IMG/VR virus record: IMGVR_UViG_3300006735_000018
Span: 1-64,000 of that record
DNA length: 64,000 nt
Strand: one strand, 5' to 3'
Source of the DNA: a virus
Part shown: positions 18,801 through 60,398 of the stretch, in pieces
How the letters are laid out: every line of letters starts with the position of its first letter
How positions within the stretch are numbered: the stretch's first letter is position 1
The notes under the pieces: model-generated
The model's database searches: none
Told to the model about the DNA's origin: nothing
The model's input: only the letters and a program-made list of their open reading frames with translations
Program-made: the position numbers and the translations under genes

Positions 18801-19500
18801 CTGTAGTTAAAGTTCTAATCCTTCTAGGTTCAACTAAGGTTACCGTATCAACATCACCTGTTTTATCTTTAAAATATTTTTTTACAATATTAGCATTTGG
18901 TTTTGGTACGTTTAATTTAAAAAATATAGTAGTTATCGGACCTGTAGTACTAAAAGCTCTTAAATCTACATCAAAACCTAAATTAGAGTATACTTTAAAT
19001 AAATCAGTATCCTCACTAATATGTGGTAATAACATTTCTATTTGATGTATTTTACCTTCCCTAGGTCTATTAAATTTATGTAAGGCGGATTTTTCGTTTG
19101 GTGAATATATTTCACTAGTAGATAGTAGAGATTTATGTATTTTGTTTCCTATTTGTTTTAGAGATAATGTCCTATCATTTTCTATATTTAGTCTTATTAT
19201 AAAATCTGATAAAAATGGTTTTTTAGTTAGTTTGTATTCACCTAACTTAAAGTTTTCCTTTTTAAAATATAAAAAAGCTTCTAGTATTTTTTTACCTTGA
19301 TATATTTGGTACATTTGTACTGGACTATTCACATCATAATCCATTGTTATAAATTGACTTTTATTGTATTTTCTACCACTTACAGTTCCGGTAGCATAAA
19401 CCTTAACTTGTAACGAATCCATTACTTGTCTTAAATCAATGTTTTTAGTATATCTTACAACATCTTTACTATTTTTTATATTTTTTTCTATAGTATCCAT
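15853..19500 (-). CDS. Large baseplate/fibre-associated structural protein, cysteine-rich C-terminal region
   Basis: This 1215-residue protein is not assignable to a named family. The N-terminal third is a lysine-rich alpha/beta region. The centre is Ser/Thr/Gly/Tyr-rich and fibre-like. The C-terminal 150 residues have a cysteine cluster (CKFYCVCKDKK, CDECEDKAENYC, CEPKVFTSSC), then a compact motif YVGFYHIHDGVPMVGAIHT and a glycine-rich tail. The ATG overlaps the last base of the upstream 1148-residue gene, so the two are translationally adjacent. Position between the connector-like gene upstream and the SprB-like adhesin suggests a distal tail or fibre scaffold. Histidines in the YHIH/HT motif could bind metal, but this is untested. 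Confidence 0.5.
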   Translation of the reverse strand: MDTIEKNIKNSKDVVRYTKNIDLRQVMDSLQVKVYATGTVSGRKYNKSQFITMDYDVNSPVQMYQIYQGKKILEAFLYFKKENFKLGEYKLTKKPFLSDFIIRLNIENDRTLSLKQIGNKIHKSLLSTSEIYSPNEKSALHKFNRPREGKIHQIEMLLPHISEDTDLFKVYSNLGFDVDLRAFSTTGPITTIFFKLNVPKPNANIVKKYFKDKTGDVDTVTLVEPRRIRTLTTAPTSYVKMESKDLELGQVKFNYLEYFQGLNQEYTDYYLKSSDVYIVKNDENYKLNIGNFIKNSVKEIPYNVSRKLDGNIIEPSTPYFDKGLRKYPLNWVSELRNNQYFSDLERCIEVSFYSAEHLDSFEQSLKENQIANLETYAGDGGKKPRLYNNISDWISRSNNDYFNDLRVEYSSGGSLKTMTICPSKETKVNEYSKKNLWDGTNCKCMYSNDTNDKLTTILVNSSLENCVEACKKTKIDNNFGKCWTCEKEYYAPIKDLRNDFFGTTFSTIKESFSAATMYTGYTSGAITGNNTYDIYFSGNGYTATTEQTGISIPITNINRIEHQPFIGVNSPSWVPYNSWQNLSAQTGTTLSLSGEGAVIIQSGDPKNYMIYKSLSGGTYKFQYQAYLDVKYTDTKWCEYITTNYVSGSTESIGYPSTEYELKRLINSSIIERGLTEGETVKKDTNGVYFPGKNGLNNNTGILDFNFEVFIEKETTSGVTSNLLSTVIGASPLTNTSANQYLLNQTNIVQNSMSGYSNCYASGTSANTVFHASIPVSLNTGLISLKSGETVSLKYNTTFNVTSKVTGGNAYIEMNLGNKIDLSGNPIQSPFYRITKYSPTTGRTSNMEKKFFMNPQKLSEPEEYINDRNETIKQTSLGSLYIIDKGYSPIKPPSINSETFNNLTFVDNKKDDKKLELNIESPKATNNWVNQLETNSLTDYYLPNNKDMVEIKSGILVFNLPRYDQKDSILCNYKFPQISHSYVIKNIISNVRGIDKEHFVVVTPDEKLYTPCFTPTLDEKFELIESEIKIKEKVDNVDNQILIDGQPIIIKTTRAEPLTQFKSDEGFKCKFYCVCKDKKSNVPTHPFYGTTDLVTDTSILDCDECEDKAENYCAGVNRSCEPKVFTSSCLGDESNLYTSGDEYLLPSGDVYVGFYHIHDGVPMVGAIHTVEPHDTLSPIRGERNNNNITNSVGSVTINYDTNTGGNGTSSGGGYGY

Positions 19501-22500
19501 TATCTGTTATTGTAGTCTTTTTCTAAATTAAATTTATACCCCCAAGGTTCTTGTTTATTTTTACTTAGAGGTAATGTCCTTTTTACTCTAAACATTATAT
19601 TGTTATTCATTTGACTAATAATATTATAAGCTCCATTAATTGTGGAGTCATTACTTGCAAATCTTTCTGTTATTAAATTTATACTATTATTTACACCAGG
19701 GTTAGAAGTTGTAGCTGAATGACCATTATAATCTATAAATGAAGGCCACACAGATTTACACGTAGCACTTAGAGGTCTCATTTGTAAAACCATACTATTT
19801 TCTGGTAGTGAACAACAATCACAAGGTTTGGTAATTGTTGTTGTAGATTTAGGTTCTATTTTAGTTTCTGTACTACCTGTATTTTGACACCCAAAAGAAC
19901 ATGTACTACCCGTATTTGGACTTGTTAGTCCAATCATTGGTAATGTTCTATCATGTGGTGTAGGTCCACCAGTACCACCACCTTGGTCATATGTACAACT
20001 ACCATCATCACTATTAGCTAGTGGGTTAAAGTTATTTGCTGATGGGTCTGTACATCCACCAACATAATTAGGTTTTTGTGGGTTATTAAAACCAGGTAAC
20101 GGAAATACCGGATAATGTTTATATGAAAATTTATCTCTGTGAAAAATTGCGTTTTCTACTTTTAAACCACCTTGCCATAATGTGGTCGCTGGTACTAATT
20201 GTTCAATAATTCTAATCCAATAGGTACCTAAACTTTGAGAATATTCTAACATTTTTTGGTACGTATATTGGTTGTTTTCACCACATACTTCAGCTAAATA
20301 ATCAATATATAATTTTTGTAACAGTGGATAACCCCCTGTTTTACCATCATCTATAGTTTGTCTATTTCTAACATTTATAAAAGTCCTCCAAAAAGTATTT
20401 ACAAACTCTTTAAATGAGTAATTTTTAGCATTTAGTAATGTTACAGTATTATCAACACCACCAGCTTGTGGAAATGGTAATGGTAGTGGACCACCACTAA
20501 ATGGACAACCACTTAATATAGATTGTTGCCAAACATCATAAACTAAAGCCTGACCTATATTTAAAAATATATCAACATTTTTAACATTCAAAATATACTT
20601 TTCATCACAAGTATGGTAATCCGCATATCTTACATTTTCAAAACTATAGTTTCTTTCTTCATTTTTACTATCAATTGTAATCCAAGATTTTTTATCATCA
20701 ACAACAGGTGTTAACCCAAAACCAATATCCATATAAGGAAACCTTCTAAACCTTTCAAGGTATGGTGCTCCAGGGTCGTTAGATGTTACTCCAGGTGGTA
20801 AATCACCGAAAAAACCACCCCAACTAAATTGGTTTAGTTTTGTCACTACTTTTGGTGTACATCCAGATAAAACCGAATTATCCACGTCAATTATAGTTTC
20901 ACCGTGGTGTTCATCCGTTTCTTCAAACCAACCAGCACCTCTTTGGAAATAGTAGTGTGTTGTTTCTCTAGGTTTGGTAGGATAACCTTGGTCATCTATA
21001 GGGTAATCTCCCCTTACAAACCCATGTGAACTGGTTATTGATGATAATTGTGTTAGATTAGTTACTGGGTCTAATATGTATTGTTGTGTTGTACTTACAC
21101 CACCAGATATTTGTTGGAATTGACTTAGGAATCCTGGAGTTGAGTCGTCATCACACCCTAGTATTTCTATGGCTTGTTGTATTTGTATAATATTTGAACT
21201 TATAGGTGTAGTTCCTGGGCCAAACTGAGATACTTTAGATTTAGGATTTACCCCTGGATGTGGTTTTTCACACCTTTGGTCTACAGGGTCCCAAATCATA
21301 CCTGGTGGGCATTTTTTAGGCCCTATGTTTGTTGATGCGTTTAATAAAGCGAATAACCTATCACACCTAGGGTCTTTAGGTGTGTTTGGTTTACCCATTC
21401 TAATTCTACAATCTGCTAATACAACATATTCATTAAACTCGGTTAAAGCTTCAGGTGCTCCTATAAACCTAAATAAAAACTCAATAGCTTTTCTTGTACC
21501 TTTAGATTTAAATAAATAAGAAGTATTCATTAAAATTCTTCTATATATTTCAATATCTAATTCCGCCGGTGTCATACCTATAGACTCACCAGAGTATTGT
21601 GGTTCATATCTATCTAATACTGTATCTAAAAACTGTTCTCTAGTTGTTGTGGAAGGAGTTTTCCAACCCAACATTTTTGCAAAATTTCTAAGTAGTTGGT
21701 TAGGTATGTTGTTTTTACTGTCATAAGTTACATTATTCATGTAAGCTATACCATCAATAAACTTTTTAGTGTCGTCAAAACTTCTACCGTAAATCTGTAA
21801 TGTTTTTTCTACTTTTCTGTCACCAGAATCAAAATCTTTTAAGGCTCCTGTTGTTAAAAATCTAGAAACTAAATTAGTTTTATAATTATCTAATTCATCA
21901 CCTATACTAACTAAACTTTCTAAATAACTTGTATACTTTTCTGTACTTACATCTATGTTCCACAAATCTTGTTTTTCCCAAGTTATATTTTGTTTTAAAC
22001 TATAATTTCTACCATTATCTGTTTGTCTAGGTAAATTTATTTCAGCTGTATATTGTGGTGCACTTTTTTGATTTAGTAAAAAAGATTCTACAGAATCAAA
22101 ATTGTTAAATTGTGTTTGTGTCTCAAAATTATTAGGTTTTATATAAAATTTAGTGTTTGATGTTGTGGCTGTTTTCCCAAATGGAGAACCTGATATTACT
22201 ATTACTAAATTATTATCACCATCTTCTATAGGTGTGTAGTCCACTACTGGGTATTCTGTAGTACCACTACCACTTAAACTAAGACTATATTTTTTATACT
22301 CTAAAGAAAAATTTCTTAATGGTGATATCTTACCTGTTTTTGCTTTAAGTGTGGTTGTTGTAATTTTACCGGTGGTAGGGTCATCTATTAAATAATCCAT
22401 TTTTAAAGAATTATCTAACTCTATTTCACCAGCTGTTGTAAATTCTATATCAAATGGGTTGGATACTTTGAGTTTAGAAATAGTTAATGTTGTCCTATCA

Positions 22501-22946
22501 TATATTGTATCATATGACATAGAATCTATAGTATTTCCAGTAGAACCATAAACTTGGTTTATTCCATTAAAGTGTAAGGCTGCTGGGAAAAAATTAACTA
22601 TTTGTTGTACTGCTACTCTAAACCTATCTTTTAAAGAACCGTATAATACAAAATTAGTAACATCACTATTATCGTAATTAAACTCAACTAATAAACTATT
22701 ATTTAAATTAGCTGTTATTAGATGAGTGTCACCAGCACTTAATTGTTCTAAAGTTATTGGACCTGAAAACCCGCCTAAATCAAAATTTCTGGAATGTCTA
22801 GCACTAGAATTATCATCTATAGAAAAATTACCAAGAGTCATTTGTGCTGACCCCTGAGTATACTGGAATCCCACTAAATCATCACTAAAAGTGCCCGCTC
22901 CACTTGGTGGTGCTGGTGGGTAGTAAAATTTCTTTTTGTTTGCCAT
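19500..22946 (-). CDS. Baseplate-to-fibre connector-like protein with a GCTDP cysteine repeat
   Basis: This 1148-residue protein contains, around residues 470-495, the stretch SYLFKSKGTRKAIEFLFRFI, like the TKGT(R/K)xAI core of phage tail protein I-type baseplate components that connect fibres to the wedge. The N-terminal 400 residues are beta-rich with repeated S-x-S-G motifs. Near residues 960-985 there is one complete copy of the GCTDPSANNFNP...DDGSCTY repeat common in marine Bacteroidota surface proteins. The protein ends in a cysteine-containing segment and a basic tail. It starts 2 bases after the preceding gene. The connector role is inferred from the core motif and position; the repeat is seen directly. 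Confidence 0.6.
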   Translation of the reverse strand: MANKKKFYYPPAPPSGAGTFSDDLVGFQYTQGSAQMTLGNFSIDDNSSARHSRNFDLGGFSGPITLEQLSAGDTHLITANLNNSLLVEFNYDNSDVTNFVLYGSLKDRFRVAVQQIVNFFPAALHFNGINQVYGSTGNTIDSMSYDTIYDRTTLTISKLKVSNPFDIEFTTAGEIELDNSLKMDYLIDDPTTGKITTTTLKAKTGKISPLRNFSLEYKKYSLSLSGSGTTEYPVVDYTPIEDGDNNLVIVISGSPFGKTATTSNTKFYIKPNNFETQTQFNNFDSVESFLLNQKSAPQYTAEINLPRQTDNGRNYSLKQNITWEKQDLWNIDVSTEKYTSYLESLVSIGDELDNYKTNLVSRFLTTGALKDFDSGDRKVEKTLQIYGRSFDDTKKFIDGIAYMNNVTYDSKNNIPNQLLRNFAKMLGWKTPSTTTREQFLDTVLDRYEPQYSGESIGMTPAELDIEIYRRILMNTSYLFKSKGTRKAIEFLFRFIGAPEALTEFNEYVVLADCRIRMGKPNTPKDPRCDRLFALLNASTNIGPKKCPPGMIWDPVDQRCEKPHPGVNPKSKVSQFGPGTTPISSNIIQIQQAIEILGCDDDSTPGFLSQFQQISGGVSTTQQYILDPVTNLTQLSSITSSHGFVRGDYPIDDQGYPTKPRETTHYYFQRGAGWFEETDEHHGETIIDVDNSVLSGCTPKVVTKLNQFSWGGFFGDLPPGVTSNDPGAPYLERFRRFPYMDIGFGLTPVVDDKKSWITIDSKNEERNYSFENVRYADYHTCDEKYILNVKNVDIFLNIGQALVYDVWQQSILSGCPFSGGPLPLPFPQAGGVDNTVTLLNAKNYSFKEFVNTFWRTFINVRNRQTIDDGKTGGYPLLQKLYIDYLAEVCGENNQYTYQKMLEYSQSLGTYWIRIIEQLVPATTLWQGGLKVENAIFHRDKFSYKHYPVFPLPGFNNPQKPNYVGGCTDPSANNFNPLANSDDGSCTYDQGGGTGGPTPHDRTLPMIGLTSPNTGSTCSFGCQNTGSTETKIEPKSTTTITKPCDCCSLPENSMVLQMRPLSATCKSVWPSFIDYNGHSATTSNPGVNNSINLITERFASNDSTINGAYNIISQMNNNIMFRVKRTLPLSKNKQEPWGYKFNLEKDYNNR
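19991..20062 (-). repeat. Single GCTDPSANNFNP-type protein repeat
   Basis: These bases encode one copy of the GCTDPxAxNxNPxAxxDDGSC repeat, within the 1148-residue connector-like protein. The same pattern occurs several times in the 995-residue protein at 23883-26870. Confidence 0.75.
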
Positions 22947-26889: not shown

Positions 26890-29800
26890 TTATCCATCAC
26901 AAGGTGCCCAACATGAGGTGGAGGTTAATTTTGAATCGGCTGGATTCAACGGTGGTGCTACATTAATCAACGGTGGTGTGTTACACACAAATGCCGTACA
27001 AGGATGGTCACCAAGTGGATTTTGACTTAAGTCTTCACACACAGATATATCAGTCGTTGTACTACAGTCAAAATTACCAATCCAAGGACCAGAAATAAGA
27101 GCAAAGGTTCCATTATCTTGACATACCGGATTAGGGTCGTAAAAATATTTAAACTGACTATCATTGGGGTTGTTACTACCAGCGTATGGGAAAGAAATAG
27201 TTACATCATAATATAGATATGGGTATGATGGGTCATAATATGTAAATGGCCATTGTGAACTTGGGTTTGCCTGACATGGTCCACATCCTTGACCACATTG
27301 TGTTGTTAAACTTCCATTACAAGCGACATCATCAGAACCAGAACATCCTTGAGAATTTTGAATAGCATCCATAGCTAAATAATTAATAGCTGTACCTCCT
27401 AGTGCTACGTGAGCAGGATTTATAGGGTCAGGTGATGAGTTAATAAAAATTTGTGTACAAGTACCACCTATACACATATACGCGTTTTCTTCTTCACAGT
27501 TATCACCACAACCCATTATATCAATTGGTGGAGGTGGTGGATTGACAAATGGATTTGTTCCACCACCAATTATATCATTAGATGGAGCACAAAAACTTCC
27601 TTGTGTGGTACCTACAGAATCGTATTGGGTACATACTCCTGTAACATCATCACAGGCATATGATATACAATTTTGTTCACAACTTAATTGGTCCGCAAAA
27701 CCTCCTGAAACACCAGAATTTGTCATACTAATACAATATTGTCCACCATAAGAACCACTACCTAAAGGTACTTGTACCCCTTGTGGTGTGACATTACACA
27801 TACAGAACCACTCTTCTAGGTTATTTGAACAATCCGCTTGACAGTCACCAATATTTGCGTGAGCTATACCTGTTGTAGCGTTACCGGGTACTGGACCTGG
27901 AACACCACTTACCTGAGCAACTCCTTGACAAGTATAAGTACCACTATTATCAACACAATACCAATCATAAACTGTTGTAGACCCACCACAACTATTAGTA
28001 CAACTAACTAAATCTGGATAGAAACCAACCGGTGTTGGTTGACAACTAGAAGTATTTGTTGAACTATCAAAAACACAATTATATCTAGTGTTAGTTGTAG
28101 TACAAGCTCCTGCGGCTACAGCAGCTTGACATAACGCTAAAGCTGTTGGTCCATTATAGGTTGCTGTTGCCCAACCAGGAGCTAGTGGTGAAACTTGTAC
28201 ACAAGTTCCTTCATCACATTCATAATGCATGTCAGGACCAGTTGTTGGTACACAAGGACTATTAATACAATCATTTAAAGCGTTAGCTGTACTTGGTGGG
28301 CTACCCACAAAGCTAGCGTTATTATAATACGTACTATTAGGTGAAATTAATACACAGGTACCGTCTATACAGTTATATCTGGCTGGTAATGAATCTTCTA
28401 TAACACATGAACCTTGACAAACTCTCCAGAAATCAGAAGTTACATCTAGTACATCTGGTGGGTTACCCCCTGAAATTACACTACTAATAGCGAAAAAACA
28501 ACAACCATCATAGTACACATAATCTCCAGGTTCATAATCTTCATCAACATCCCAAACACCCCTATCTGTTGTAACACTCAATGTTATATAAGAAGAGTTT
28601 GAATAGTATATTTGATTGGCGTTACAAATGTCACAAGCTCCTTGTAAAGAATACCCACATTGTCTAGTTAAAAAATCATCAATATTCATACCAAACCCTT
28701 GAGTTTGGAAAACTGTAGTACCATTTATGTGGTCAAACATTTGAAATACTTCAGTACCATTTGTAATCGTGTATGCTGTTCCTGTTGGTGTTACCGCATC
28801 TACTGTACCTTCTAAATTATCAACTGTAGTTCCATCTGGTAATATTGATTGTCCAGCTACACTAACCGTATTTCCTATAACATAACCAGGTGGCAGTCCT
28901 GGTGAAAACGCGTTATTATATGACTGTAAAGAAGTTAACATACTATCAGTGGTACCATTTATTGGGTATGGTGTTGGTCCGTAATTAGAGGTTAAATAAC
29001 CATGTATGTCTAAACCACTATCCAAAGGTCCCCAATCAGAAGTTTCATAATCCATACTAACTGGTGTTGAGAATCCTGGTGGGGTAAATGTGTAGGTTTG
29101 ACCAGTATTAAAAACCCCAGCCCATACATCAGCTCCCGTTAAAAATGGTATAGCTACTTGGTGTGACACTGAACTGGTACCCCAAGGTCCTACCATTCTA
29201 ACATTTACAGTATAAACCCCATTATTTGTATAAGTGTGTACTACAGTATCTAATGGTGCTGTTACAGTTACTGGTGCAGCTAAAGGGTCACCCCAATCTA
29301 CAGTATATTGTATATTTTCTAACCATTTAAAAAATCTAAATTCAGTACTGTTTGTTAAACTAACCGTTTTTTTTGTTGGGTCAAGTGGGTCCCCAACCAC
29401 AACAAAGTTAGAAAAATTGTCCGAATGTTCCATTTCACCATCCCACATAGAGTAATGACCTATATCGTTTAGGTCTTGGTCTAATAGTATGACTAACTGT
29501 GAATCATTACTATTTCTACCTGTTCTATTACAACATTTACACCAATCGTTTGGGTCTGTAAATGGGTCTGGTGCCTTTTGTATTCTTAGAGGAAATGATT
29601 TTTCTGTAAAAAGTTTTTTCTTAGCTCGTTGTGTTCTTTCTTCACATTTAAGGCAATATTCATTTTGTTTTTCAAAGTCTAAAGCATAAAATTTTTCACA
29701 ATCATCTAAAATTAGTCCACAACAATTAGTATTTTTATCAGGACAACAAACATTTAAAGAACCAGCATAACAATCTAAACAAGCATCTATTACAGCTTGT

Positions 29801-29958
29801 GCGTTACCCAAATCACTACATGTTTTACAGTCTGGTGAAATTGGTGTTGGTGTTACTGGTAAAGTTCTTCTAACCCCAACTAATTTTTTATCTTCACAAG
29901 GTTCTGTCCATTTTCCTGGTATATTACCAGTCCATATTTTATATCTATAAATTTCCAT
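26890..29958 (-). CDS. Cysteine-rich repeat adhesin with PKD-like domain
   Basis: The 1022-residue protein has a cysteine-dense N-terminus (CxxC pairs between residues 44 and 145), a PKD-like immunoglobulin fold at about 195-275 (YTVDWGDPLAAPV, HTYTNNGVYTVNVRMVG), and from about 515 to 880 a run of repeats of the form YxCxxxxCxxxxxxxxxxYxxxxxCxxxC, for example RYNCIDGTCV, HYECDEGTCV, RYNCVFDSS and WYCVDNSG. PKD and cysteine repeats are common in Bacteroidota extracellular proteins and suggest binding to polysaccharide or protein surfaces. There is no signal peptide; the gene abuts the upstream structural gene by 1 base and is in a run of virion genes. A host-recognition role is inferred. Confidence 0.6.
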   Translation of the reverse strand: MEIYRYKIWTGNIPGKWTEPCEDKKLVGVRRTLPVTPTPISPDCKTCSDLGNAQAVIDACLDCYAGSLNVCCPDKNTNCCGLILDDCEKFYALDFEKQNEYCLKCEERTQRAKKKLFTEKSFPLRIQKAPDPFTDPNDWCKCCNRTGRNSNDSQLVILLDQDLNDIGHYSMWDGEMEHSDNFSNFVVVGDPLDPTKKTVSLTNSTEFRFFKWLENIQYTVDWGDPLAAPVTVTAPLDTVVHTYTNNGVYTVNVRMVGPWGTSSVSHQVAIPFLTGADVWAGVFNTGQTYTFTPPGFSTPVSMDYETSDWGPLDSGLDIHGYLTSNYGPTPYPINGTTDSMLTSLQSYNNAFSPGLPPGYVIGNTVSVAGQSILPDGTTVDNLEGTVDAVTPTGTAYTITNGTEVFQMFDHINGTTVFQTQGFGMNIDDFLTRQCGYSLQGACDICNANQIYYSNSSYITLSVTTDRGVWDVDEDYEPGDYVYYDGCCFFAISSVISGGNPPDVLDVTSDFWRVCQGSCVIEDSLPARYNCIDGTCVLISPNSTYYNNASFVGSPPSTANALNDCINSPCVPTTGPDMHYECDEGTCVQVSPLAPGWATATYNGPTALALCQAAVAAGACTTTNTRYNCVFDSSTNTSSCQPTPVGFYPDLVSCTNSCGGSTTVYDWYCVDNSGTYTCQGVAQVSGVPGPVPGNATTGIAHANIGDCQADCSNNLEEWFCMCNVTPQGVQVPLGSGSYGGQYCISMTNSGVSGGFADQLSCEQNCISYACDDVTGVCTQYDSVGTTQGSFCAPSNDIIGGGTNPFVNPPPPPIDIMGCGDNCEEENAYMCIGGTCTQIFINSSPDPINPAHVALGGTAINYLAMDAIQNSQGCSGSDDVACNGSLTTQCGQGCGPCQANPSSQWPFTYYDPSYPYLYYDVTISFPYAGSNNPNDSQFKYFYDPNPVCQDNGTFALISGPWIGNFDCSTTTDISVCEDLSQNPLGDHPCTAFVCNTPPLINVAPPLNPADSKLTSTSCWAPCDG

Positions 29959-30887
29959 TATGGGTTTATATATTCATAAAATTTTATAGGTGTAGTAAAA
30001 TCTCCACCTACTTGAGGACCCAAACCACTATTAGCGTTATATAAATTTATATCGTATTCATTAAACATGTATGTAAAATCTGTAGGGTCAAAAGTTAATT
30101 GATAGTAATAGTATTCTGGAATACTTAGTTTGTAAGTATTTAGTGGTTGTATTTTATTTATAAATTTATGTATTTTTCCTGTTTCAGCATTAAAAAACTT
30201 ACAAGACATATAGAATACATTATATTTTACTAATTCTCTATTCTTTAACCACTGTATATAATAATTTTCGGTATTTCTACCTATAGATGCAAATTCAAAC
30301 CTAGAGGATTCTAATTTATCATAGTAGTATGGTGGTCCATTATAGATACCATCTTGTAAATCTTCTATTTCTTTATCTCTATAAGCTAGTGGGTCATAGT
30401 TTATTGAGGTATCATCGTTAGATATTTCTAGTAATGAAGAATAAGGTCCTGTTTCGGTAAAACTTTTTCCATTGTTAGCAGGATTTATTATAGAAAAATA
30501 CAACCTTTGTCTTTGTGGGTCTGGTGTGTCATAAAAATCAAATTTAAAAAAACTTCTAGTAAAATTACTTTTTCTATCTATAATATCTGGGTGACTTATA
30601 CCTACAACCGAATAATCTGGAATGTAATCTAGTGGGTCAGCTGTTGCTGTGGAAACCATACTAAATTGCATATCATAAAATATGTGTTTTTCTGGATGTT
30701 CGGTTTTAGGTGAATATCTAGTAGTTTCAAAATCTTGTGTTATATTAATATTGTCCTGCATTTCTGACCTTTCATACAGTTCAACTAATTGTTCTCTACC
30801 TAAAGATTCATCAAAATCATTAGCTATAGGGAATGAAACTTTTTTATCAGTTTCACTTCTTAATATTCTCATTCTATTCACAGTCAT
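29958..30887 (-). CDS. Baseplate-region structural protein of unknown role
   Basis: The 309-residue protein is rich in Tyr, Asp and Asn, with no repeats, cysteine clusters or hydrophobic segments. A second ATG at 30872 would begin one base after the stop of the preceding gene, whereas the first ATG at 30887 overlaps it by 14 bases; both are possible. The end overlaps the start of the 1022-residue adhesin by 1 base. It is compact and acidic compared with its neighbours, as expected of a baseplate adaptor. I do not recognise the family. Confidence 0.45.
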   Translation of the reverse strand: MTVNRMRILRSETDKKVSFPIANDFDESLGREQLVELYERSEMQDNINITQDFETTRYSPKTEHPEKHIFYDMQFSMVSTATADPLDYIPDYSVVGISHPDIIDRKSNFTRSFFKFDFYDTPDPQRQRLYFSIINPANNGKSFTETGPYSSLLEISNDDTSINYDPLAYRDKEIEDLQDGIYNGPPYYYDKLESSRFEFASIGRNTENYYIQWLKNRELVKYNVFYMSCKFFNAETGKIHKFINKIQPLNTYKLSIPEYYYYQLTFDPTDFTYMFNEYDINLYNANSGLGPQVGGDFTTPIKFYEYINP

Positions 30888-32610
30888 CTGCCGGTAAACT
30901 TATATAAGGTGGTGTTAGGTAATCTTTATCGATAATTATTGGTTTTATCTTAAAAATTACATTTGTGTATGGATAATGTGCCCCATTTACAAAAGGATAA
31001 TTTACCCCATTAGTTTCAGATTCGTAAAAACCTATAGGTAACATTTCTCTCCATCTAAATTGATTTTCGTAATTTGAGTAGGTTGCGTATTGTGAAACAA
31101 ATTCAAAATTATCATGTACCGAAGGTGCTTCTGATAATTTTCTAATAGGTATTCTATGGTGTGGTTGGTAGTAGTACCCTCCTTGTATTTCATTAAAACT
31201 ATTACCGTCTAGACCTGAATCGTAAAAAGAAAATCCGTCAGTTAAAATATCGTTATATGTTAATTTATGATAAACTTCAGATACTATTCTTTCACCTATG
31301 TCCCATTTATTGTACTCTACAAAAGCACCCGTAAAGGTATCACCACTCTGTGGTAAGTTCCAAGGTGTTGTAAGATTTGGTTCTATGTTATTATTTGGAT
31401 ATGGGTCTACAATTCCTGTTGGTTTAAAGTTCCAATCCCAACCGATACCTACAGGACTACCATTTTTAGTTTTCCAAATTCTAGTTTCATTAACAGCAAA
31501 AACACTTAAATATAAATCTAGAATAGGTCTTCCTAAGTTATCAGAATAATCACTAACATCTAAATCATTATTAAAATTCCACAAATATGATTTATAATCA
31601 CTTTTAGTAACTATATGTTCTATACCTAGAGTTGGTGCATCTTCATCCCTAAAATTTTTTTCTCTTTTAGAAAAAATACCAAACTCAAAACCAGTCCTAT
31701 CTAAAACATCGTCTGTTGGTTTTGTTAAAATTTTATGTGAATGAACATAATAATCTGATAGTGTTTCACTTACATTACTTGGGTCTATTAATCTTTTAAA
31801 TACACCAAAGTCACTATTAGTAACAGTTATAGTAGAATCTTGTAGTAGAACAGTAAACACTTTTTGTTCACTACCTAAGGTTTCATCACCTAATGAAAAA
31901 ATAGGTAATGTAGTTTTACCATTTAACATAGTGACCAAATTAACCCCACCCATTGTAGCGATAGTACCTGTTGTCTGTAAAACGATGTATTCACCCTCAT
32001 TTAGTCCATGATTTACTGGACAAGTAAACTTTACACCACTTTTACCTTGTATCTTAACATTTTCAACAAAAAATGGTATACCGTCACCAGCTTGAAATGT
32101 TATTCCAGAATAACTAACAACACCACTATCATCTTTTGATGAAATGGTATATTCCATTGGGTAGTCGGACACACTATCATGTATGTAAGATTCATATATT
32201 ACCCAATTATCCTTTTTTGCTTTTATTTCTTGGTAGTTATGTGCTGAAGTTAATGCTGTATATGTTATAAAGTCAAAAAAGCTACTTGCTGGATACCCAC
32301 ACGCAGCTGTAGATGCGGAAGGTATTATAGGGTCATAGTAAAGATGGTTAGAAACAAATAATGGGTCATAACTACAACCAGAAATAACATTATCATATAA
32401 AACATTTATTTTACCATATAATCTGTAAATATAACTTTCTTCTCGTTCTCTAATATATTGGTCTGCTAAATTTAATACTAAATTTCTTTCCCCTTCAATT
32501 AAAGTTCTAGTAGTGGACTCTAAAGAATATGGAATTCTTAAATTCTTATCTTGAGCACCTATATATTTTTGGGAACCTCTAACTATATGTAAACTTTCTG
32601 GATATCTCAT
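30874..32610 (-). CDS. Baseplate-region structural protein of unknown role
   Basis: The 578-residue protein opens with MRYPESLHIVRGSQKYIGAQ and a helical arginine-rich stretch (LNLADQYIREREESYIYRLY, about residues 40-65), followed by beta-rich sequence. The start overlaps the last base of the 1164-residue baseplate gene, and the end overlaps the next gene by up to 14 bases, so it is in a tightly packed structural transcript. Position after gp25, gp6 and the 1164-residue protein matches where T4-like phages place outer wedge proteins, but no residue-level similarity to gp7, gp8 or gp10 could be recognised by eye. Confidence 0.45.
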   Translation of the reverse strand: MRYPESLHIVRGSQKYIGAQDKNLRIPYSLESTTRTLIEGERNLVLNLADQYIREREESYIYRLYGKINVLYDNVISGCSYDPLFVSNHLYYDPIIPSASTAACGYPASSFFDFITYTALTSAHNYQEIKAKKDNWVIYESYIHDSVSDYPMEYTISSKDDSGVVSYSGITFQAGDGIPFFVENVKIQGKSGVKFTCPVNHGLNEGEYIVLQTTGTIATMGGVNLVTMLNGKTTLPIFSLGDETLGSEQKVFTVLLQDSTITVTNSDFGVFKRLIDPSNVSETLSDYYVHSHKILTKPTDDVLDRTGFEFGIFSKREKNFRDEDAPTLGIEHIVTKSDYKSYLWNFNNDLDVSDYSDNLGRPILDLYLSVFAVNETRIWKTKNGSPVGIGWDWNFKPTGIVDPYPNNNIEPNLTTPWNLPQSGDTFTGAFVEYNKWDIGERIVSEVYHKLTYNDILTDGFSFYDSGLDGNSFNEIQGGYYYQPHHRIPIRKLSEAPSVHDNFEFVSQYATYSNYENQFRWREMLPIGFYESETNGVNYPFVNGAHYPYTNVIFKIKPIIIDKDYLTPPYISLPADDCE

Positions 32611-35600
32611 TATATTACTACGTAATCATCTGTGCTTTCTTTTTCTAATGGTACATACTTCTTAACAAATGTATCATAAGAAGTTGCTCCAGGTATTAAA
32701 CCAAAATAATAATGATAACCCATACCTAAAGATACTCTAGATTGTGGTTGATTTGCTGTTATAGGTGTTGTAGGTAAAGGTGTCCCGTTATTTGTTTGCC
32801 AAGTAAATATATCTTGTATGTTACCAAAAGCTATATCACTTTCGTTTGTTGCCCAATCCCCATCATACCATTGGGTACTACCATACCCACCACCATTTTT
32901 ATCCCAAGGAAAGAATGGTACTATTTGAGAGGTGTTGTTATTAACTTCAACTATACATTCTCTAATGTGTTCGGCTGAAGGATTTATAGTATCACCACTA
33001 CTTAATTGTACTGTCATTTCAACACTATCGTCTGAAGAACCTCCAGCACCTGGTACACTTACCGACCTATTTATCCAAGCGGCTTCTCCTTCAAATTGCC
33101 ATCCAAGTTGCCAAGTTGGATTACTTGGACTTATTTGTGCTGTAGAAGGCCAACTACTGTCCCACATGGTAGAACCATTAGCCCATGTGTTTCCACCAGA
33201 TGGTGGATAATCCCAACCCATGTTATCCGCTGTATATCTTGTAGCTGGGTCACAATCTGGCGGGTTACATAACACAGCAAAATAATTTATTTCAGCGGTA
33301 TCTGGTGCTTCATATTCTACCACACCTACCTCATTAAATTGTGATAGTATAGAAGCCATACCACCATTAAGTTCTCTTCTTCTACCTGGTTGTGACCAAG
33401 TTTCATTTCTTCTAAATGGTGTTCTTAAGTTTATTAAATCAAAAGCACTATTATTGTAGTTAACTATTTCATTTATAGCGTCAAATAAAAAATCACCCGC
33501 TCCATTAAATGTAGTACTTCCAATATTAGGTGCGACAGAACAACCTTCACTAGCACCTCCACTATTAGTACATATTTCACCTATATTAGTTTTTACTGGA
33601 CCTAAATCCATTATTGTAGTTGGCCAATGTAGATTTCTATTATTTGCTCCAGCAGCCTTTTCCTGACCTAAAGTAGCCATATACCCTATTGGTCCACCTA
33701 TTAAAAACCCAACTAATGGTGGTATACTAGCGTCAAAGAAAGGACTACCACGAAACACACCAGTTCCTGTGGCAAAATCATAACTATAAGGTGTACATCT
33801 ATAATAATATTGTTGGTCCCTTGTATGGAAATATACTATTTCGTCACAATGTTGTGACCTATACTTACCCTCAACTTTACTAGGTCTAATTTTAGCTCTA
33901 AATTGAAATGCGTATAATACCCCACCAACATAGTTATTTGACCAAAAATAATTCATTAGTCCGTCACACATAGACCTAAATAAATTTTCTCTTTTTCTCC
34001 AATCTATAATCATAGCTACCTTTGTAGGTTCTGAATTAAAAATACTTCCTATAGCACTTAAAATATTATCCCAATCAATACTATAACAACCTTGGTCTAA
34101 AGCTTTATCGTCATTTGTTGGTGTATTACACTCTAAGTAGTCATTATCGTCATCCCCTTCATCGTCGCAACCCACTAAACCACCACAACAATCTTGGTTT
34201 GCACTACCATTTACAGCGGTAGTGTAACAACCACATTTATCACACTCTGGATATTTTGTTAATCTTAAAAATAAACAACCAAAAATATCACTACAAGAAA
34301 CACTTAAACCGTTGGCTGCTTGTTCACAAGGACATGTGTTACAAGTACAATGTCTCTTTCTTTTCCTTTTACTCCAAAAATAAATTACATTACAAAGAAC
34401 ACATATAATACCCATAACCACACGGTAAATTAAATCTATTATAATCATAATTATAGCAACTATGGTACACACTAAAACCATAATAAAATATAGCATGGTG
34501 TATATTCCTTGTAAAAATCTTGTTATAAATTGATTGATTACAATTGCAAAATTAACATTTTTGTTAGCTGAGTTCATTGGGAATGGTGCTGCTTGTCCAG
34601 CACAACTATCTTCTTGTCTTGGTGCTATTTCTTTTACCCCTATAAAAGCATCTTTAGCTCTATGTTTCCAATGGTTATGAAATGATGTTAGGGTATATAC
34701 TTTAGAATATTCAAATTCATAAAAAACATCATTACATGATAGGATATCACCACTATCAACAGATGCTTCCGCGTAATCATAATAATTTACAGAAAAAGCA
34801 TAACTTCTTTGGTCTACAATTGTAGTTTGTGGTGGGTTTACACCTAAAATATTATATGGGAATGTGCTAGTAAAATCGACACCTTCTTTTGAGTGTTCTT
34901 TAATTTGTGGAACTAAAAAAGCTCCTCTTTTTCTTTGTCTTGCTGTACCAGTTGTTTCTAATGGTTTAATCCTAAATCTATATTTCCCTTTTGTTGGTAT
35001 TCCTATTCCTGGTTTTTTAGATATTTCTTGTTCACCAAATTCGTTTGTTATCACATAATCTAAATTCATTGGTACGTTAACTAGAAAGGCTCCATTTTCA
35101 TCAATTGTATACCCACCATTAATGTCAAATCTTTCTAAAACAGGCACCAATTCTGTTTGTCCTGGATTATTTGTATAACCAGTAGGTCTAACATCTTCTT
35201 TAAAAAATGGTGTCCACCTTATAGATTCTAAACTTCCTTGTGCGGGAGCTAAATTACAAAGTTCACCCATATCTCTTTTAGGTTTACAGTTTTTATTAAC
35301 TGATGACCTTTCTGTGTCAGTAACTAGTGAACCCATAAAAACAGCTGTAGGTTTTATTTCTACACTTCCAGATTCTCTTAAATCAAAATCGGCTCTAGTT
35401 ATTGTAGCTCCACATCCAGAATCTGCATCACCCCACAAAGGTTTTACATCTATAGATTTTGATAACATAACTATTTGTGGTAAAGCGTCTAGATTTGGGT
35501 CTGTTTTAAATTCTGCTCCATTAAAAGAAGCTTCTGGTTCTCCTTGTAATTTAAAATCTTCAGGTACCATTGAAAAACATCCTATGTCAGATAGGTCGAC

Positions 35601-36104
35601 ATTCATAACTAAAGTGTGTTCACCTAAAGGTACACCATAAATCATAAAGTCACCACTATCATTTGTTTTGGCTGTGTATTTGTAATATTTGTCATACACA
35701 TAAGAAACTTCTTGGTTAAGTAATGCGTTATCTAGGGATGGAAAACTACCTGTAGATTGGTGTCCGTTATAGTTTGGTACACTGGATAATAAATTATACC
35801 TATAACCTTCTTCATTTCTATAGTTTTGTGTTTTATAAGGATATAAGGCACTTATTACTGGATTTTCTTCATCCTCACTATCTAAAGGTACGAATACAGA
35901 TACTTTAGCGTTTGGTAGTCCGAAACCACCGTTAACTAGAACTCTACCACATACAACACCAAAATTAGAGCAGTCCTTTGGGTAAACATCTGTTTGATGT
36001 AACCTTAGACTTAATATTTCTAATAAATCAAAATCTTGATTTAAATCTAAAGTGATTTCTTTATCTACACCGATTTCGGTTCTAACTCTTAAACTTTTTA
36101 GCAT
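32610..36104 (-). CDS. Large baseplate protein with internal membrane-like segment and Cys-rich module
   Basis: The 1164-residue protein starts with wedge-like sequence and carboxypeptidase-regulatory/transthyretin-like beta folds: GRVLVNGGFGLPNAKVSVFV near residue 50 and TNDSGDFMIYGVPLGEHTLV near 150. At about 530-575 there is a long hydrophobic run (MLYFIMVLVCTIVAIIMIII, then VVMGIICVLCNVIYFW). This is followed at once by a basic cluster (SKRKRKRH) and a dense cysteine module (CTCNTCPCE, CDKCGCY, DCCGG) of about 70 residues. The remainder is aromatic-rich. The gene follows gp6 with a 73-base gap. Membrane helices are unusual in a baseplate protein and could act in envelope penetration; this is inference. 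Confidence 0.6.
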   Translation of the reverse strand: MLKSLRVRTEIGVDKEITLDLNQDFDLLEILSLRLHQTDVYPKDCSNFGVVCGRVLVNGGFGLPNAKVSVFVPLDSEDEENPVISALYPYKTQNYRNEEGYRYNLLSSVPNYNGHQSTGSFPSLDNALLNQEVSYVYDKYYKYTAKTNDSGDFMIYGVPLGEHTLVMNVDLSDIGCFSMVPEDFKLQGEPEASFNGAEFKTDPNLDALPQIVMLSKSIDVKPLWGDADSGCGATITRADFDLRESGSVEIKPTAVFMGSLVTDTERSSVNKNCKPKRDMGELCNLAPAQGSLESIRWTPFFKEDVRPTGYTNNPGQTELVPVLERFDINGGYTIDENGAFLVNVPMNLDYVITNEFGEQEISKKPGIGIPTKGKYRFRIKPLETTGTARQRKRGAFLVPQIKEHSKEGVDFTSTFPYNILGVNPPQTTIVDQRSYAFSVNYYDYAEASVDSGDILSCNDVFYEFEYSKVYTLTSFHNHWKHRAKDAFIGVKEIAPRQEDSCAGQAAPFPMNSANKNVNFAIVINQFITRFLQGIYTMLYFIMVLVCTIVAIIMIIIDLIYRVVMGIICVLCNVIYFWSKRKRKRHCTCNTCPCEQAANGLSVSCSDIFGCLFLRLTKYPECDKCGCYTTAVNGSANQDCCGGLVGCDDEGDDDNDYLECNTPTNDDKALDQGCYSIDWDNILSAIGSIFNSEPTKVAMIIDWRKRENLFRSMCDGLMNYFWSNNYVGGVLYAFQFRAKIRPSKVEGKYRSQHCDEIVYFHTRDQQYYYRCTPYSYDFATGTGVFRGSPFFDASIPPLVGFLIGGPIGYMATLGQEKAAGANNRNLHWPTTIMDLGPVKTNIGEICTNSGGASEGCSVAPNIGSTTFNGAGDFLFDAINEIVNYNNSAFDLINLRTPFRRNETWSQPGRRRELNGGMASILSQFNEVGVVEYEAPDTAEINYFAVLCNPPDCDPATRYTADNMGWDYPPSGGNTWANGSTMWDSSWPSTAQISPSNPTWQLGWQFEGEAAWINRSVSVPGAGGSSDDSVEMTVQLSSGDTINPSAEHIRECIVEVNNNTSQIVPFFPWDKNGGGYGSTQWYDGDWATNESDIAFGNIQDIFTWQTNNGTPLPTTPITANQPQSRVSLGMGYHYYFGLIPGATSYDTFVKKYVPLEKESTDDYVVI

Positions 36105-36177: not shown

Positions 36178-38031
36178 TTATGAAAAGTTTGGCCTGTTGA
36201 TTTGTTTAACACGTACACGAATATCAATATCTGGATATCTTACCTGTGGCATTTCATCTGGTTGGAAGAATAGTGTTTGGTCTACCACCCCTATTTGGTA
36301 TGTAGAACTAATTGTGGAACCTGAAACTAGTGGTTGTGACGTGATTGAATTGGAGTACGTCCCACCTACTTCGTTGTATACTCTGATATCTATAACATTT
36401 AACACACCTGGTTGTTCCGACACTCTAGCGTAAAGATTACTAAGACTAATAGTTTCCCCTAATTCATGAGAATCTATATCAAAAAAGTTTTTTACAGATT
36501 CTATAACATTAGAAACAACTTGTCCTTGATTTACATCGGTGGTTATTACTACATCTATATCTAAACTTAAATCGATTACTTTACCAGAAGATACTTCTAT
36601 ATAATCATTTAACATCCTATAGTTAGACAAATACTCAGATACGTTATTTTTTAAAGTAGAACTAACATTAGATGTTAAAGCTCCATTAGGTGAGTAGGAT
36701 AATAGACTAAGTTTTACTTTATTCTCTATTTCTGTAACACCAACTTTTGCTGCCGCACCAAAGTGAGCCGGCATTGTTCTTACTCTAGCTATATAATCAT
36801 TTATAGTGACCGCTCTATTTTGTGCTGCAAAGTTAAAGGTAACATAATTTCTAACTTCTTCGGTAGACATTTGGTCGTCACCACCTAAAGCTGATGTTAC
36901 GTTTGTAACTTGTAGACTATTAGATACGTTATTGTTAATTAGGGATACTGGTCCTGAAACTACAAAATCTATAAGACCTAACGAATTTATCGCTCCAGCT
37001 CCTAAATTAGAGGCTTTTCCACCACCAACCCTATACTGTATGAATAGTGTACTATTTGGTTTTGGTATTGTACCTAAAGAAATATTATTTATAAATTTAT
37101 TTAAATTTATATTAATCCCATATTTTGAAAACTCATCTAATAATTTTTGTGAATTGTTATTTCCACTACCAAAAGTTAAAAAAAAGAAACCTTCGGGAGT
37201 AAATTCCGTTATGAATTTATTATCAGTTCTTATATATTTACCAATTTTTAAACCAGGGTCATCAGCTGGAGTCGATTCATCTATTTCAAAAACTTCAGAT
37301 TCTGCCAATGCTTGCATTTCATACCATTTATTTTCTCTAGCTGTTATAAATTCTAAAGCTGAAGGTAAATTTGTATAACCTAAACCTTCTTTTTGTATTA
37401 CAGAAGTCACACCAAGTACATTTCTTTCTGGTAAAAATAATTTTAAAAATGGTTTACTATCTATATCGGTAATTTCTTTTTTAAACACTTTAGTTACACC
37501 ATTTACAACCACCTCTCTTTTAGTAATTGTGTAGTTTTGAATTATACCATTACTATTATAGTTTGGTACTTTGGTTCTATTTACAGCCCCTTCTACATTG
37601 TATTGTGATGAAAAGTCACAATCATTTACCAATTCAAATACTTGACCACCACCTCTTACTTGAGCTCCTCTTCTTAAAAAACCTAAATATCTACTATCTT
37701 CTTTATCCCCTCTTGCTGGGACCACAATAGAAAAATCACATAATGTTATAGATGGTCTATTTCCTGGTATTTTAAGCCCATAAGTTCTAGCTATATTAAA
37801 AATAGAACTTCTTTCCTGTGCATAATCTAAAACAGTTTCTTGTAACGACCTATCAATACTAAAATGTAAATTGTCAGCTACAGCAGCATTTAAATCTAAA
37901 AATACTGAAAATATAGAAGCGTCATTAGAATTTTTTATTAAATCTGGATAATATATATTTGTTAGTCTAAGTAGTTCATTTCTTAAACCTAGAAAATCTC
38001 TTTCTGTGTAAGCTATTTTTTTCTCTGCCAT
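36178..38031 (-). CDS. Baseplate wedge protein, gp6/baseplate J family
   Basis: At 617 residues this matches the size and layout of T4 gp6-type wedge proteins, which form the conserved ring of the contractile baseplate. Supporting motifs include the N-terminal AYTERDFLGLRNELLRLTNI and the C-terminal half ALGGDDQMSTEEVRNYV followed by NRAVTINDYIARVRTMPAHF, typical of the baseplate J core. It begins one base after the gp25-like gene, the same order as in many contractile phages and tailocins. It would interact with gp25 and the gp53-like protein to bind the sheath-tube complex. The call is strong on motif and synteny. Confidence 0.85.
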   Translation of the reverse strand: MAEKKIAYTERDFLGLRNELLRLTNIYYPDLIKNSNDASIFSVFLDLNAAVADNLHFSIDRSLQETVLDYAQERSSIFNIARTYGLKIPGNRPSITLCDFSIVVPARGDKEDSRYLGFLRRGAQVRGGGQVFELVNDCDFSSQYNVEGAVNRTKVPNYNSNGIIQNYTITKREVVVNGVTKVFKKEITDIDSKPFLKLFLPERNVLGVTSVIQKEGLGYTNLPSALEFITARENKWYEMQALAESEVFEIDESTPADDPGLKIGKYIRTDNKFITEFTPEGFFFLTFGSGNNNSQKLLDEFSKYGININLNKFINNISLGTIPKPNSTLFIQYRVGGGKASNLGAGAINSLGLIDFVVSGPVSLINNNVSNSLQVTNVTSALGGDDQMSTEEVRNYVTFNFAAQNRAVTINDYIARVRTMPAHFGAAAKVGVTEIENKVKLSLLSYSPNGALTSNVSSTLKNNVSEYLSNYRMLNDYIEVSSGKVIDLSLDIDVVITTDVNQGQVVSNVIESVKNFFDIDSHELGETISLSNLYARVSEQPGVLNVIDIRVYNEVGGTYSNSITSQPLVSGSTISSTYQIGVVDQTLFFQPDEMPQVRYPDIDIRVRVKQINRPNFS

Positions 38032-38032
38032 G

Positions 38033-38539
38033 TTATAAATTTATAATTATAAAATCTCTTGTACCAAACACATCATCTTTTATACTATAATCTATAAAAA
38101 TTTTAGTAGTATATTCTTCAGTACCATCACCAGCTATTCTATATATTCTATCATCTAAGTCGGTGTCCAAGGTACTATCATTAGAAACTAATGATGGGTG
38201 GTTGGATGAATTATTTTTTCTTTCTTCTTCTCTAACGTCTTCCAAATTTTGTAATTTTATTTCATTAACAATTATATTTGGTATGTATTTTTGAATTACG
38301 TCTCTAAGTTCTGAGTCTATAGCTTGAAATGTTGTGGTGTCTAGTGGTTCAAAAATGTACTCGTATAATCTTGTACCAAAATCTGGTAAAAAGTACCTAG
38401 ACCCCTTTCTTGTTAATATAAGGTGTATCAAATCAGCTTTAGTTTCTTCCGCTACTGTAGTTGTTGTTTTTAAAAAAAAACCACTATCACTATCTTGGAA
38501 GGGAAAAGCTATACCATATCTTTCTCTAGCTATTGTCAT
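38033..38539 (-). CDS. Baseplate wedge protein gp25 (GpW/gp25 lysozyme-like fold)
   Basis: This 168-residue protein carries the gp25 signature: an N-terminal RYGIAFPFQDS segment, a helix with DLIHLILTRKGSRYFLPDFG, then TRLYEYIFEPLDTTT and an IQKYIPNIIVNEIKL strand. gp25 bridges gp6 to the sheath and is needed for sheath nucleation. It is slightly longer than T4 gp25 (132 residues), with an acidic insertion (about 108-135) before the C-terminal strand. It is followed after one base by gp6. The gene marks the return from replication genes to tail genes on this strand. Confidence 0.9.
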   Translation of the reverse strand: MTIARERYGIAFPFQDSDSGFFLKTTTTVAEETKADLIHLILTRKGSRYFLPDFGTRLYEYIFEPLDTTTFQAIDSELRDVIQKYIPNIIVNEIKLQNLEDVREEERKNNSSNHPSLVSNDSTLDTDLDDRIYRIAGDGTEEYTTKIFIDYSIKDDVFGTRDFIIINL

Positions 38540-58217: not shown

Positions 58218-60398
58218 TTATGATGGTGTAGTAACATTTAAACCAGCTAGACTAGTACCTATAGCCTGTATTACTGTTGGGTCTAGTGCTGACATTATTT
58301 GTTTTGGTGTTAGTCTTATTGTATTACCATCATACATAATTTCTAAAGGGTTGAATACGACGTTAACCGTGTTACCCCCACCACCAGTAGTACTGTTGTT
58401 TATATAATTAGATATAACGTTTTGTCCTTCTGGTGTGTTTTCTAAATAACTATTTATCATATTAGGGTCATACCCTGGATAAGCTCCACCTGTGGCCGCC
58501 CCACCAGTAGAACTACCTCTTTCTGTATTTCTCATAGATTCATCAAGAGCTGGTGATACTGGACTACCAGACATACCTGGAACTCTATCTAAGAAATTTG
58601 GGATAAATTCACCAAAATCACCCATTATGTCCACTAAATTATTACCAGTCGCTCCAGTTCCTGCGGTAACCCCACCTAAACCTTCACCAAGTAAAAAATT
58701 ACCTAATCCAGATTGAGCTAGTTCACCAGCAAAATCTTTAGCTGTAGTACCTAATAATCCAGATGCTGCAGCTTGTGTCATTAAATTTTGTATTATAGCT
58801 GTATTTGCTGCCATACCCTCTTGTACCGAAAGTTGGGCCTTGTTAACATCTTCTAGGTTCATTGTATCCTTTTGGGATTGTTTTTGTATTTTTGCTAGTA
58901 GTTCTCCACCATCTTTCGCAAAAACCTCACCTAATTCATCAAAAGATAATTCTTTATCACCAAGAGTTAACGAAAACGTACCGTCAGGATTAATGTCAGC
59001 CATAGAAGCTATTAATTCTTTATCCTCTTGACTAAGTTCTGGTATACCACCTAATTTACCAATTGCTTGTGTTCTTTTAGCGGCTTTAATTGCTGTTTCT
59101 GCAAGATTATTATAATCTTGACCTGTAGCTTCAGCTATAGATTTTAACCTCATTCTTTCCCCTGGTGATATACCAAACTCACCCGTTTCTTTATTAAAGG
59201 TTACCGCACTTTCTGCTGTTTTTACAATAGCATCCTGTAGACCCTCGACATCATTTTGAGCCATATACATTAACTGGAATGGGTCTAATAGTTCACTAGC
59301 GGCACCACCAATCATTTGTAATTTTGAAGCCATTTCAATCGCACCTTCAGGTGTAAAAGCTTTGTCTGCCATCTGTAACGCGTTTTCGAAATTATAACCC
59401 AATACTTGAGCTTTAGCTACCATTTCAGATAAACCGTTTACACCGTTTTGAAAACCGTAAGTGTTTATCTTATCTATGTTAGCTTCTACTTGTGGTAAGA
59501 ATTTTGAAACTACAGCACCAAATCTACCAGCTGTAGCTATAGCGTCTTTAGTAATTTCTACAGCTTCTTTGGAACCGATACCAATTCTATCAAACTGTGC
59601 TATAGTATTTGACATATCAATGTCGTATATTTCTTCTAGTTTTGCTGCACCGACTATAGCTTCTTTTGGTAATATAAAAGCCCTACCGGTATCTTCGGCT
59701 GTTTCTTTTAACATCTTCATAGCGTCGTTAGCGGTTAAAGCCCAACCCATAAAGTCCGCTGAAGCATCGGTTACAGTTTTTATAATATCATCCATGAAGA
59801 CTTCATCCATCCCCATAGTGTTTATTATATCTTTACGCATTTGGTCGGTTAAAGATATAATATCCAAGTATGTACCTAAAGCTTCAGTACTTTTAAACTC
59901 ACCCTGGGCCCCTTGAGCAATTAAGTCAGTCATGTTTTGCATCATCTGCATAGACTCACCTAAAGTTAAATCAGCTTGACTTCTGGCTTGTGATAGTTCT
60001 TTTAACATTTTACCCAGTTCGGTAGATGTTGTAGAAAAATCATTGTAGTCTGACCTTCCAGGGTCATCAGTATCAATACCCTTTCTTCTTAAGTAATCTG
60101 CTACCGCTCTATCAAAACTAGACTGAGTTACTGTAACGTCACCACCACTTTCATCTTTTAAGATTACTTGGTATGATGGTAATGGATTTTTTATTCCTAA
60201 TTTTTTTGCTAATTCTAATGAAACTATATTACCTTTAGGTCCTAATTTTTTAATGGATTTTACCCTAGCAGTATAATTTGGTTCATCTACTGTGTTAAAA
60301 ATACCTAAGGGTACACCTAATTCTGGATGTGAGGCTAAATAGGGTTTACCGTGTGATAGAAACCCCTCAATATGAAGTTGTTTACTTGTATTAAACAT
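58218..60398 (-). CDS. Tail tape measure protein
   Basis: This 726-residue protein is helix-rich with typical tape-measure composition: alanine-rich helical repeats (AIVKTAESAVTFNKETG, DYNNLAETAIKAAKRTQAIG), glycine-rich loops near the C-terminus (GGVTAGTGATGNN, TGGAATGG), and a short beta C-terminus (VNVVFNPLEIMYDGNTIRL). Tape measure proteins set tail length and help pass DNA into the cell. At about 0.15 nm per residue, 726 residues would span roughly 110 nm (rule of thumb). It follows the gp26/gp51-like pair, as expected for a chaperone-tape-measure order. The first 80 residues (MFNTSKQLHIEGFLSHGKPY...) are atypical and may be a separate domain. Confidence 0.75.
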   Translation of the reverse strand: MFNTSKQLHIEGFLSHGKPYLASHPELGVPLGIFNTVDEPNYTARVKSIKKLGPKGNIVSLELAKKLGIKNPLPSYQVILKDESGGDVTVTQSSFDRAVADYLRRKGIDTDDPGRSDYNDFSTTSTELGKMLKELSQARSQADLTLGESMQMMQNMTDLIAQGAQGEFKSTEALGTYLDIISLTDQMRKDIINTMGMDEVFMDDIIKTVTDASADFMGWALTANDAMKMLKETAEDTGRAFILPKEAIVGAAKLEEIYDIDMSNTIAQFDRIGIGSKEAVEITKDAIATAGRFGAVVSKFLPQVEANIDKINTYGFQNGVNGLSEMVAKAQVLGYNFENALQMADKAFTPEGAIEMASKLQMIGGAASELLDPFQLMYMAQNDVEGLQDAIVKTAESAVTFNKETGEFGISPGERMRLKSIAEATGQDYNNLAETAIKAAKRTQAIGKLGGIPELSQEDKELIASMADINPDGTFSLTLGDKELSFDELGEVFAKDGGELLAKIQKQSQKDTMNLEDVNKAQLSVQEGMAANTAIIQNLMTQAAASGLLGTTAKDFAGELAQSGLGNFLLGEGLGGVTAGTGATGNNLVDIMGDFGEFIPNFLDRVPGMSGSPVSPALDESMRNTERGSSTGGAATGGAYPGYDPNMINSYLENTPEGQNVISNYINNSTTGGGGNTVNVVFNPLEIMYDGNTIRLTPKQIMSALDPTVIQAIGTSLAGLNVTTPS

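Follow-up and report, generated by a model that had tools for sequence, protein, structure and literature searches.

Gene neighbourhood and family of P0001

The 64-kb window, by which we mean the whole stretch of DNA analysed here, is part of a 92,962-base IMG/VR virus record (~93 kb) that carries a contractile-tail gene set, including a sheath (phrog_23 2e-52) and gp25-like and gp6-like wedge genes, as well as genes for a helicase, a recombinase and a ribonucleotide reductase. The protein considered here, P0001, follows the gp6-like gene (Table 1), and the plus strand opposite its ORF (32610-36104) contains stops throughout. The gp25- and gp6-like genes directly upstream bear out the first-pass annotation, which had placed this ORF in the baseplate region. 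P0001 lies inside the gp25-gp6-gp7 cluster and is conserved with it, the gene context of a contractile-phage baseplate component, and a gp6 homologue is also present in the contigs of distant P0001 relatives (L038, L044, L053, L062). Judged by this gene position, P0001 is a putative baseplate component in the broad sense. Searches of PHROG, NCBIfam and the PDB (by sequence and by sequence profile) returned no match, and the sole Pfam match was sub-threshold (fn3_3, E 0.066). P0001 does not fit the description of a tail tape-measure protein, a long and largely helical product encoded after the tube gene: its gene lies between those for gp6 and gp7, its N-terminus is modelled as beta-sandwich, and the tape-measure candidate is a different gene (58218..60398).

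Table 1. Positions in the window of P0001, its parts and the tail genes discussed in the text
Feature	Position	Strand	Remarks
P0001, baseplate-region protein	32610..36104	minus	ATG ORF, 1164 aa
N-terminal region of P0001, residues 1-475	34680..36104	minus	two modelled beta-sandwich domains (~46-249, ~252-475)
Predicted continuous hydrophobic helix of P0001, residues 519-577	34374..34550	minus	59 residues, ~88 Å if straight; hydropathy, AF2
KRKRKRH basic run of P0001, residues 579-585	34350..34370	minus	only in closest relatives
P-x-C-x2-C-x-C motif of P0001 (PECDKCGC), residues 619-626	34227..34250	minus	78/81 dereplicated TM-type proteins
C-terminal part of P0001, residues 641-1164	32613..34184	minus	sequence and length vary within the family
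gp25-like wedge protein	38033..38539	minus	phrog_261 1e-15, PF04965 2e-10
gp6-like (Baseplate_J) wedge protein	36178..38031	minus	directly upstream of P0001; phrog_219 8e-19, PF04865 7e-7
578-aa protein	30874..32610	minus	directly downstream of P0001; similar-size ORFs follow P0001 homologues in distant relatives
309-aa protein	29958..30887	minus	next gene after the 578-aa ORF; similar-size ORFs at same position in distant relatives
gp7-like wedge homologue	19500..22946	minus	hmmsearch 1.3e-9, KSKGT-type motif
Tape-measure candidate	58218..60398	minus	726 aa, no Cys, no TM-like segment (minimum 8.1)

P0001 has hundreds of relatives, nearly all from uncultured phages. A single-sequence search with P0001 recovered 64 loci. 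A profile of the N-terminal region matched at least 600 stretches in IMG/VR, together with 8 loci in GTDB genomes, and a further 170 stretches, on contigs of up to 412 kb, were confirmed with a query taken from the rumen/gut large-phage branch. The GTDB matches (Bacteroidota, Paludibacteraceae and other MAGs, and one Prochlorococcus single-cell assembly) give no more than a hint of the host. Cultured relatives were sought among 50,697 phage records with five tblastn queries (window, L055, L064, L152, L148), none of which found a match at 0.01. One BFVD entry, A0A8S5LA66 from Myoviridae sp. ctPuP5, belongs to the family (32% identity over 560 columns, E 8e-47); listed with 994 residues and likewise uncharacterised, it adds no function. 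On the evidence of sequence, P0001 represents a previously undescribed and uncharacterised baseplate protein family that is abundant in uncultured contractile-tailed phages, and it thereby flags a baseplate family missing from phage annotation.

Structure was modelled with AF2 on residues 1-701 using 102 sequences (mean pLDDT 78.7); a full-length model from 34 sequences reached a pLDDT of 39 and was used for the helix alone, its C-terminal part being too low in confidence. The N-terminal region contains residues that are invariant across the 102 relatives and was mostly modelled at pLDDT 80-96. Its Foldseek and VIA-align matches (pilins, carboxypeptidase, teneurin) are weak, with Z below 8, and do not constitute functional evidence; the best match of residues 46-249 to transthyretin or carboxypeptidase-regulatory-like folds (Z 6.7, 81 aligned residues) falls below the clear level of the tool.

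The hydrophobic segment and the cysteines

The long hydrophobic stretch reported in the first-pass annotation is real. The 19-residue Kyte-Doolittle mean exceeds 1.6 over residues 530-578, with a maximum of 3.19, and the best 19-mer (residues 538-556) has an apparent insertion energy of -5.6 on a Hessa-type scale without position weighting, compared with a lowest value of -2.9 and a mean minimum of +4.3 in 5000 composition-preserving shuffles of P0001. A 45-residue score of 0.8 likewise lies beyond the lowest shuffled value of 5.9. P0001 is the sole genuine-looking long ORF of the 93-kb contig with such a segment, the remaining matches being short ORFs that are mostly antisense to longer genes.

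Absence from close relatives, which the first-pass annotation had named as a refuting observation, is not seen: every close relative whose sequence extends to the segment has it. For comparison across the family, members were sorted by hydrophobic segment and cysteine motif, not from a tree, into three groups: TM-type, large-phage and short. In the TM-type group, the broad branch of the window with full-length members of ~1130-2090 aa, all 81 dereplicated proteins carry a segment scoring 1.0 or lower and 78 carry P-x-C-x2-C-x-C. The segment is weaker in the rumen/gut large-phage branch (median 0.1; 1.0 or lower in 24/39; motif in 1/39), where the helix at the same place is shorter, more charged and amphipathic and contains a conserved Lys. 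It is absent from the short branch (median 10.5; 1.0 or lower in 0/7), where a helix on an adjacent same-strand ORF was looked for and not found.

The first-pass annotation had proposed two helices forming a hairpin, a part of its description that our analysis does not support. AF2 models residues 519-577 as one helix (pLDDT ~77-83), and the family-average hydropathy of these residues peaks at 100 degrees per residue, a strength equalled in none of 5000 permutations, the phase being 58 degrees for the N-terminal half of the segment and 48 for the C-terminal half; the same period is found in marine and other TM-type sets taken separately. Because the hydropathy phase should be interrupted in a hairpin, one continuous helix (~88 Å if straight) is favoured. 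This continuity and shared phase, in both halves and in two branches separately, would also suit a buried structural helix that forms a long hydrophobic bundle with its own copies or with baseplate neighbours, stiffens the baseplate and never meets lipid. We regard this, the main rival reading, as a real possibility short of an even one. The opposite face of the TM-type helix is, however, nearly free of charge, which would be unusual for a soluble bundle: charged residues make up 3-4% of the segment at the median in this branch, one face is ~81% I/L/V/F and the other weakly polar (N, T, Y, G, S, A, C).

Conservation bears on the same question from two sides. No mapped domain is less conserved in sequence than the segment, with an identity of 0.15-0.27 compared with 0.40-0.61 in domain 1; dN/dS within the segment is 0.13-0.37. 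The sequence data indicate that the segment is held to a pattern in which hydrophobic character is kept and sequence is free, a combination that counts against a buried structural helix. The hydrophobic face is, if anything, slightly better conserved (correlation 0.45 over all rows, but 0.06-0.20 within clades), and as a test of lipid-exposed versus buried surfaces this conservation moment leans, without deciding, to buried packing, as do the Lys-containing amphipathic version in the large-phage branch and the existence of phages without the helix. Hydrophobicity conserved without sequence would also be accounted for if the segment held P0001 and the growing baseplate at the inner membrane during assembly, with no role in entry, and a single TM-like segment in a structural protein made inside the cell would be expected to target it to a membrane. 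We consider such anchored assembly improbable, as the free virion would then expose hydrophobic helices.

A basic run and a cysteine-dense region do follow the hydrophobic stretch, as first described. Of the 33 cysteines of P0001, 14 fall within 90 residues from position 586, whereas no more than 13 did so in any of 5000 shuffles. A role for KRKRKRH is not supported, given its restricted occurrence, and the dense cluster is not conserved as such: most cysteines are confined to close relatives, and P-x-C-x2-C-x-C alone is general. This motif may be a putative disulfide or metal (zinc or Fe-S) site, and as part of the buried-helix reading, at the same tentative level, it would act as a staple of either kind. 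Cysteine-linked structures are known from phage Milano, for which a disulfide-linked baseplate and tail are described in the part of the report cited (PMC10811340). Milano and P0001 share cysteine-rich structural proteins in a contractile tail, putative in the case of P0001, and differ in that no hydrophobic helix is reported in that part of the Milano account (PMC10811340).

Cysteine-richness in the operon reaches beyond P0001. Two neighbouring proteins of 995 and 1022 aa (23883-26870 and 26890-29958, minus) contain 63 and 62 cysteines and gave no family match above the cut-off. A 79-aa protein (38757-38996, minus) with a GSCCGSGCRHCPF Cys motif had no NCBIfam match.

Comparison with gp7 of T4

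The location of P0001 directly after gp6 is that of gp7 in T4, and T4 gp7 carries one TM-like segment of its own (residues 888-906, -0.2 on the same scale; L243 7061-10159). This was the lowest score among 19 T4 tail proteins, followed by gp29 at 2.0, and a GenBank note on gp7 states that its 'C-terminus is predicted integral membrane domain'. These parallels would fit P0001 as the gp7/Tri2 wedge subunit, with its helix in the gp6-gp7 core bundle. The phage, however, has a gp7-like gene of its own, detected with a profile of the proteins that occupy the gp7 position in immuto, Mel-JY01 and LR756508, and P0001 is therefore not gp7. When P0001 relatives were compared by profile with the proteins at the gp7 position in immuto and Mel-JY01, no match emerged, and no P0001 homologue was detected by this means after gp6 in immuto, Mel-JY01 or LR756508. 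We reject the gp7 assignment, which we rate as very improbable; gene order and profile evidence identify P0001 as an additional protein, encoded between gp6 and gp7. The earlier statement that P0001 has no T4 counterpart holds for sequence searches (T4, 50,697 phage records) and needs amending in that T4 gp7 also has one TM-like segment, though this is far weaker and shorter and the two proteins show no detected sequence relation.

Tape measures and the proposed membrane role

Passage of contractile-phage DNA across the inner membrane is, to our knowledge, poorly understood, and the TM segments of tape measures are a usual suspect. Tape-measure candidates were identified by position and by homology to other such candidates, the criteria being absence of cysteine and a location after the tube gene and before a conserved protein of ~1000 aa. 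None of the tape measures of nine TM-type phages (window, G004, G005, G007, G010, G011, G023, G030, G039) has a TM-like segment, their minimum scores being 7.0-10.7. The opposite arrangement occurs in the L154 phage, which has a short P0001 homologue without the helix and a tape measure homologous to that of the window (1.5e-22) in which the shared core is followed immediately by four TM-like segments, and in immuto and Mel-JY01, whose tape measures have 4 and 3 TM-like segments and in neither of which a P0001 homologue was detected. Seventeen large phages are intermediate, with tape-measure minima mostly of 2-8 and one score of 0.8 at the first residue of the ORF that may be a start-site artefact; by eye, helix strength and tape-measure hydrophobicity follow no trend in this branch. 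The tape measures of the L062 and L065 phages were searched for and not located.

The hypothesis of a contrast arose from the window contig together with immuto and Mel-JY01, and was then tested in the further phages. Occurrence of the helix in P0001 versus TM-like segments in the tape measure is a suggestive contrast among few independent lineages, compared without a tree, in which the TM-type phages share ancestry and the opposite cases number three. Related phages differing in this way nonetheless form a natural contrast that gives testable predictions on which protein contacts lipid. Neither a buried helix nor anchored assembly would explain it.

Possible precedents for such a membrane role come from lambda and T5. 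The lambda tail-tip plug protein gpI has hydrophobic helices (PMC11101478); it is a much smaller protein of a siphophage tail with two separate helices, whereas P0001 has 1164 aa and one long helix in a contractile tail, and we liken the two by function, not by sequence. In T5, a 46-residue hydrophobic stretch of pb2 has been proposed to enter the outer membrane and form a channel there, a separate tip protein anchors to the membrane, and pb3 is the hub (PMC10038345). The T5 stretch lies in the tape measure, whereas here it lies in a baseplate-region protein and the tape measure is without TM-like segments.

The conserved helix property, the gene position and the tape measures without TM-like segments in the carriers are directly established. 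We posit, as an evenly balanced proposition, that the P0001 helix becomes inserted in the host envelope, either as an anchor or as a channel, and substitutes for the membrane segments of the tape measure. We rank a membrane-active role first since such segments are lacking from the tape measures of TM-type phages; this role is also favoured by hydrophobicity beyond that of shuffled sequences and by retention of the segment in 81/81 TM-type proteins despite low identity. The N-terminal beta-sandwich region would dock next to the gp25/gp6 wedge of the baseplate, with the near charge-free helix and the cysteine motif kept shielded in the virion. Upon attachment or contraction, several copies of P0001 might present their helices at the host envelope. 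The hydrophobic face would there meet the lipid of one or other membrane, and the opposite, weakly polar side (N, T, Y, G, S, C) would pack together or line a passage. The helices could then anchor the tail tip or form a channel, and so take over the task of tape-measure TM segments in other phages. That the channel or anchor has moved from the tape measure to a multi-copy baseplate protein, whose long helices form a pore around the tube tip, is a more tentative version of the proposal.

Several observations count against insertion. A helix of 88 Å far exceeds the bilayer core, the hydrophobic face is, if anything, slightly better conserved, as expected of a packed interior more than of a surface exposed to lipid, and the helix of the large-phage branch is shorter and more charged, with a conserved Lys. 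The segment of T4 gp7 also scores -0.2, and one such score is therefore no proof of insertion; a weakly polar face suits pore lining and packing alike, and the sequence data thus do not decide between them.

Three further large proteins of this phage were noted. The tail sheath protein is unusually large at 1369 aa (G000 63788-67897; L066 3789-7898; minus, partly outside the window), with the phrog_23 match mainly confined to its last ~310 residues. A 1329-aa protein (11851-15840, minus) has a sub-threshold match (E 0.0025) to the Por_Secre_tail sorting domain, which is typical of Bacteroidota. A 2106-aa protein (47450-53770, minus), in which a TM-like segment was looked for and not found, has a C-terminal M23-peptidase-like region and is conserved in seven related contigs, with lengths of ~1870-2160 aa.
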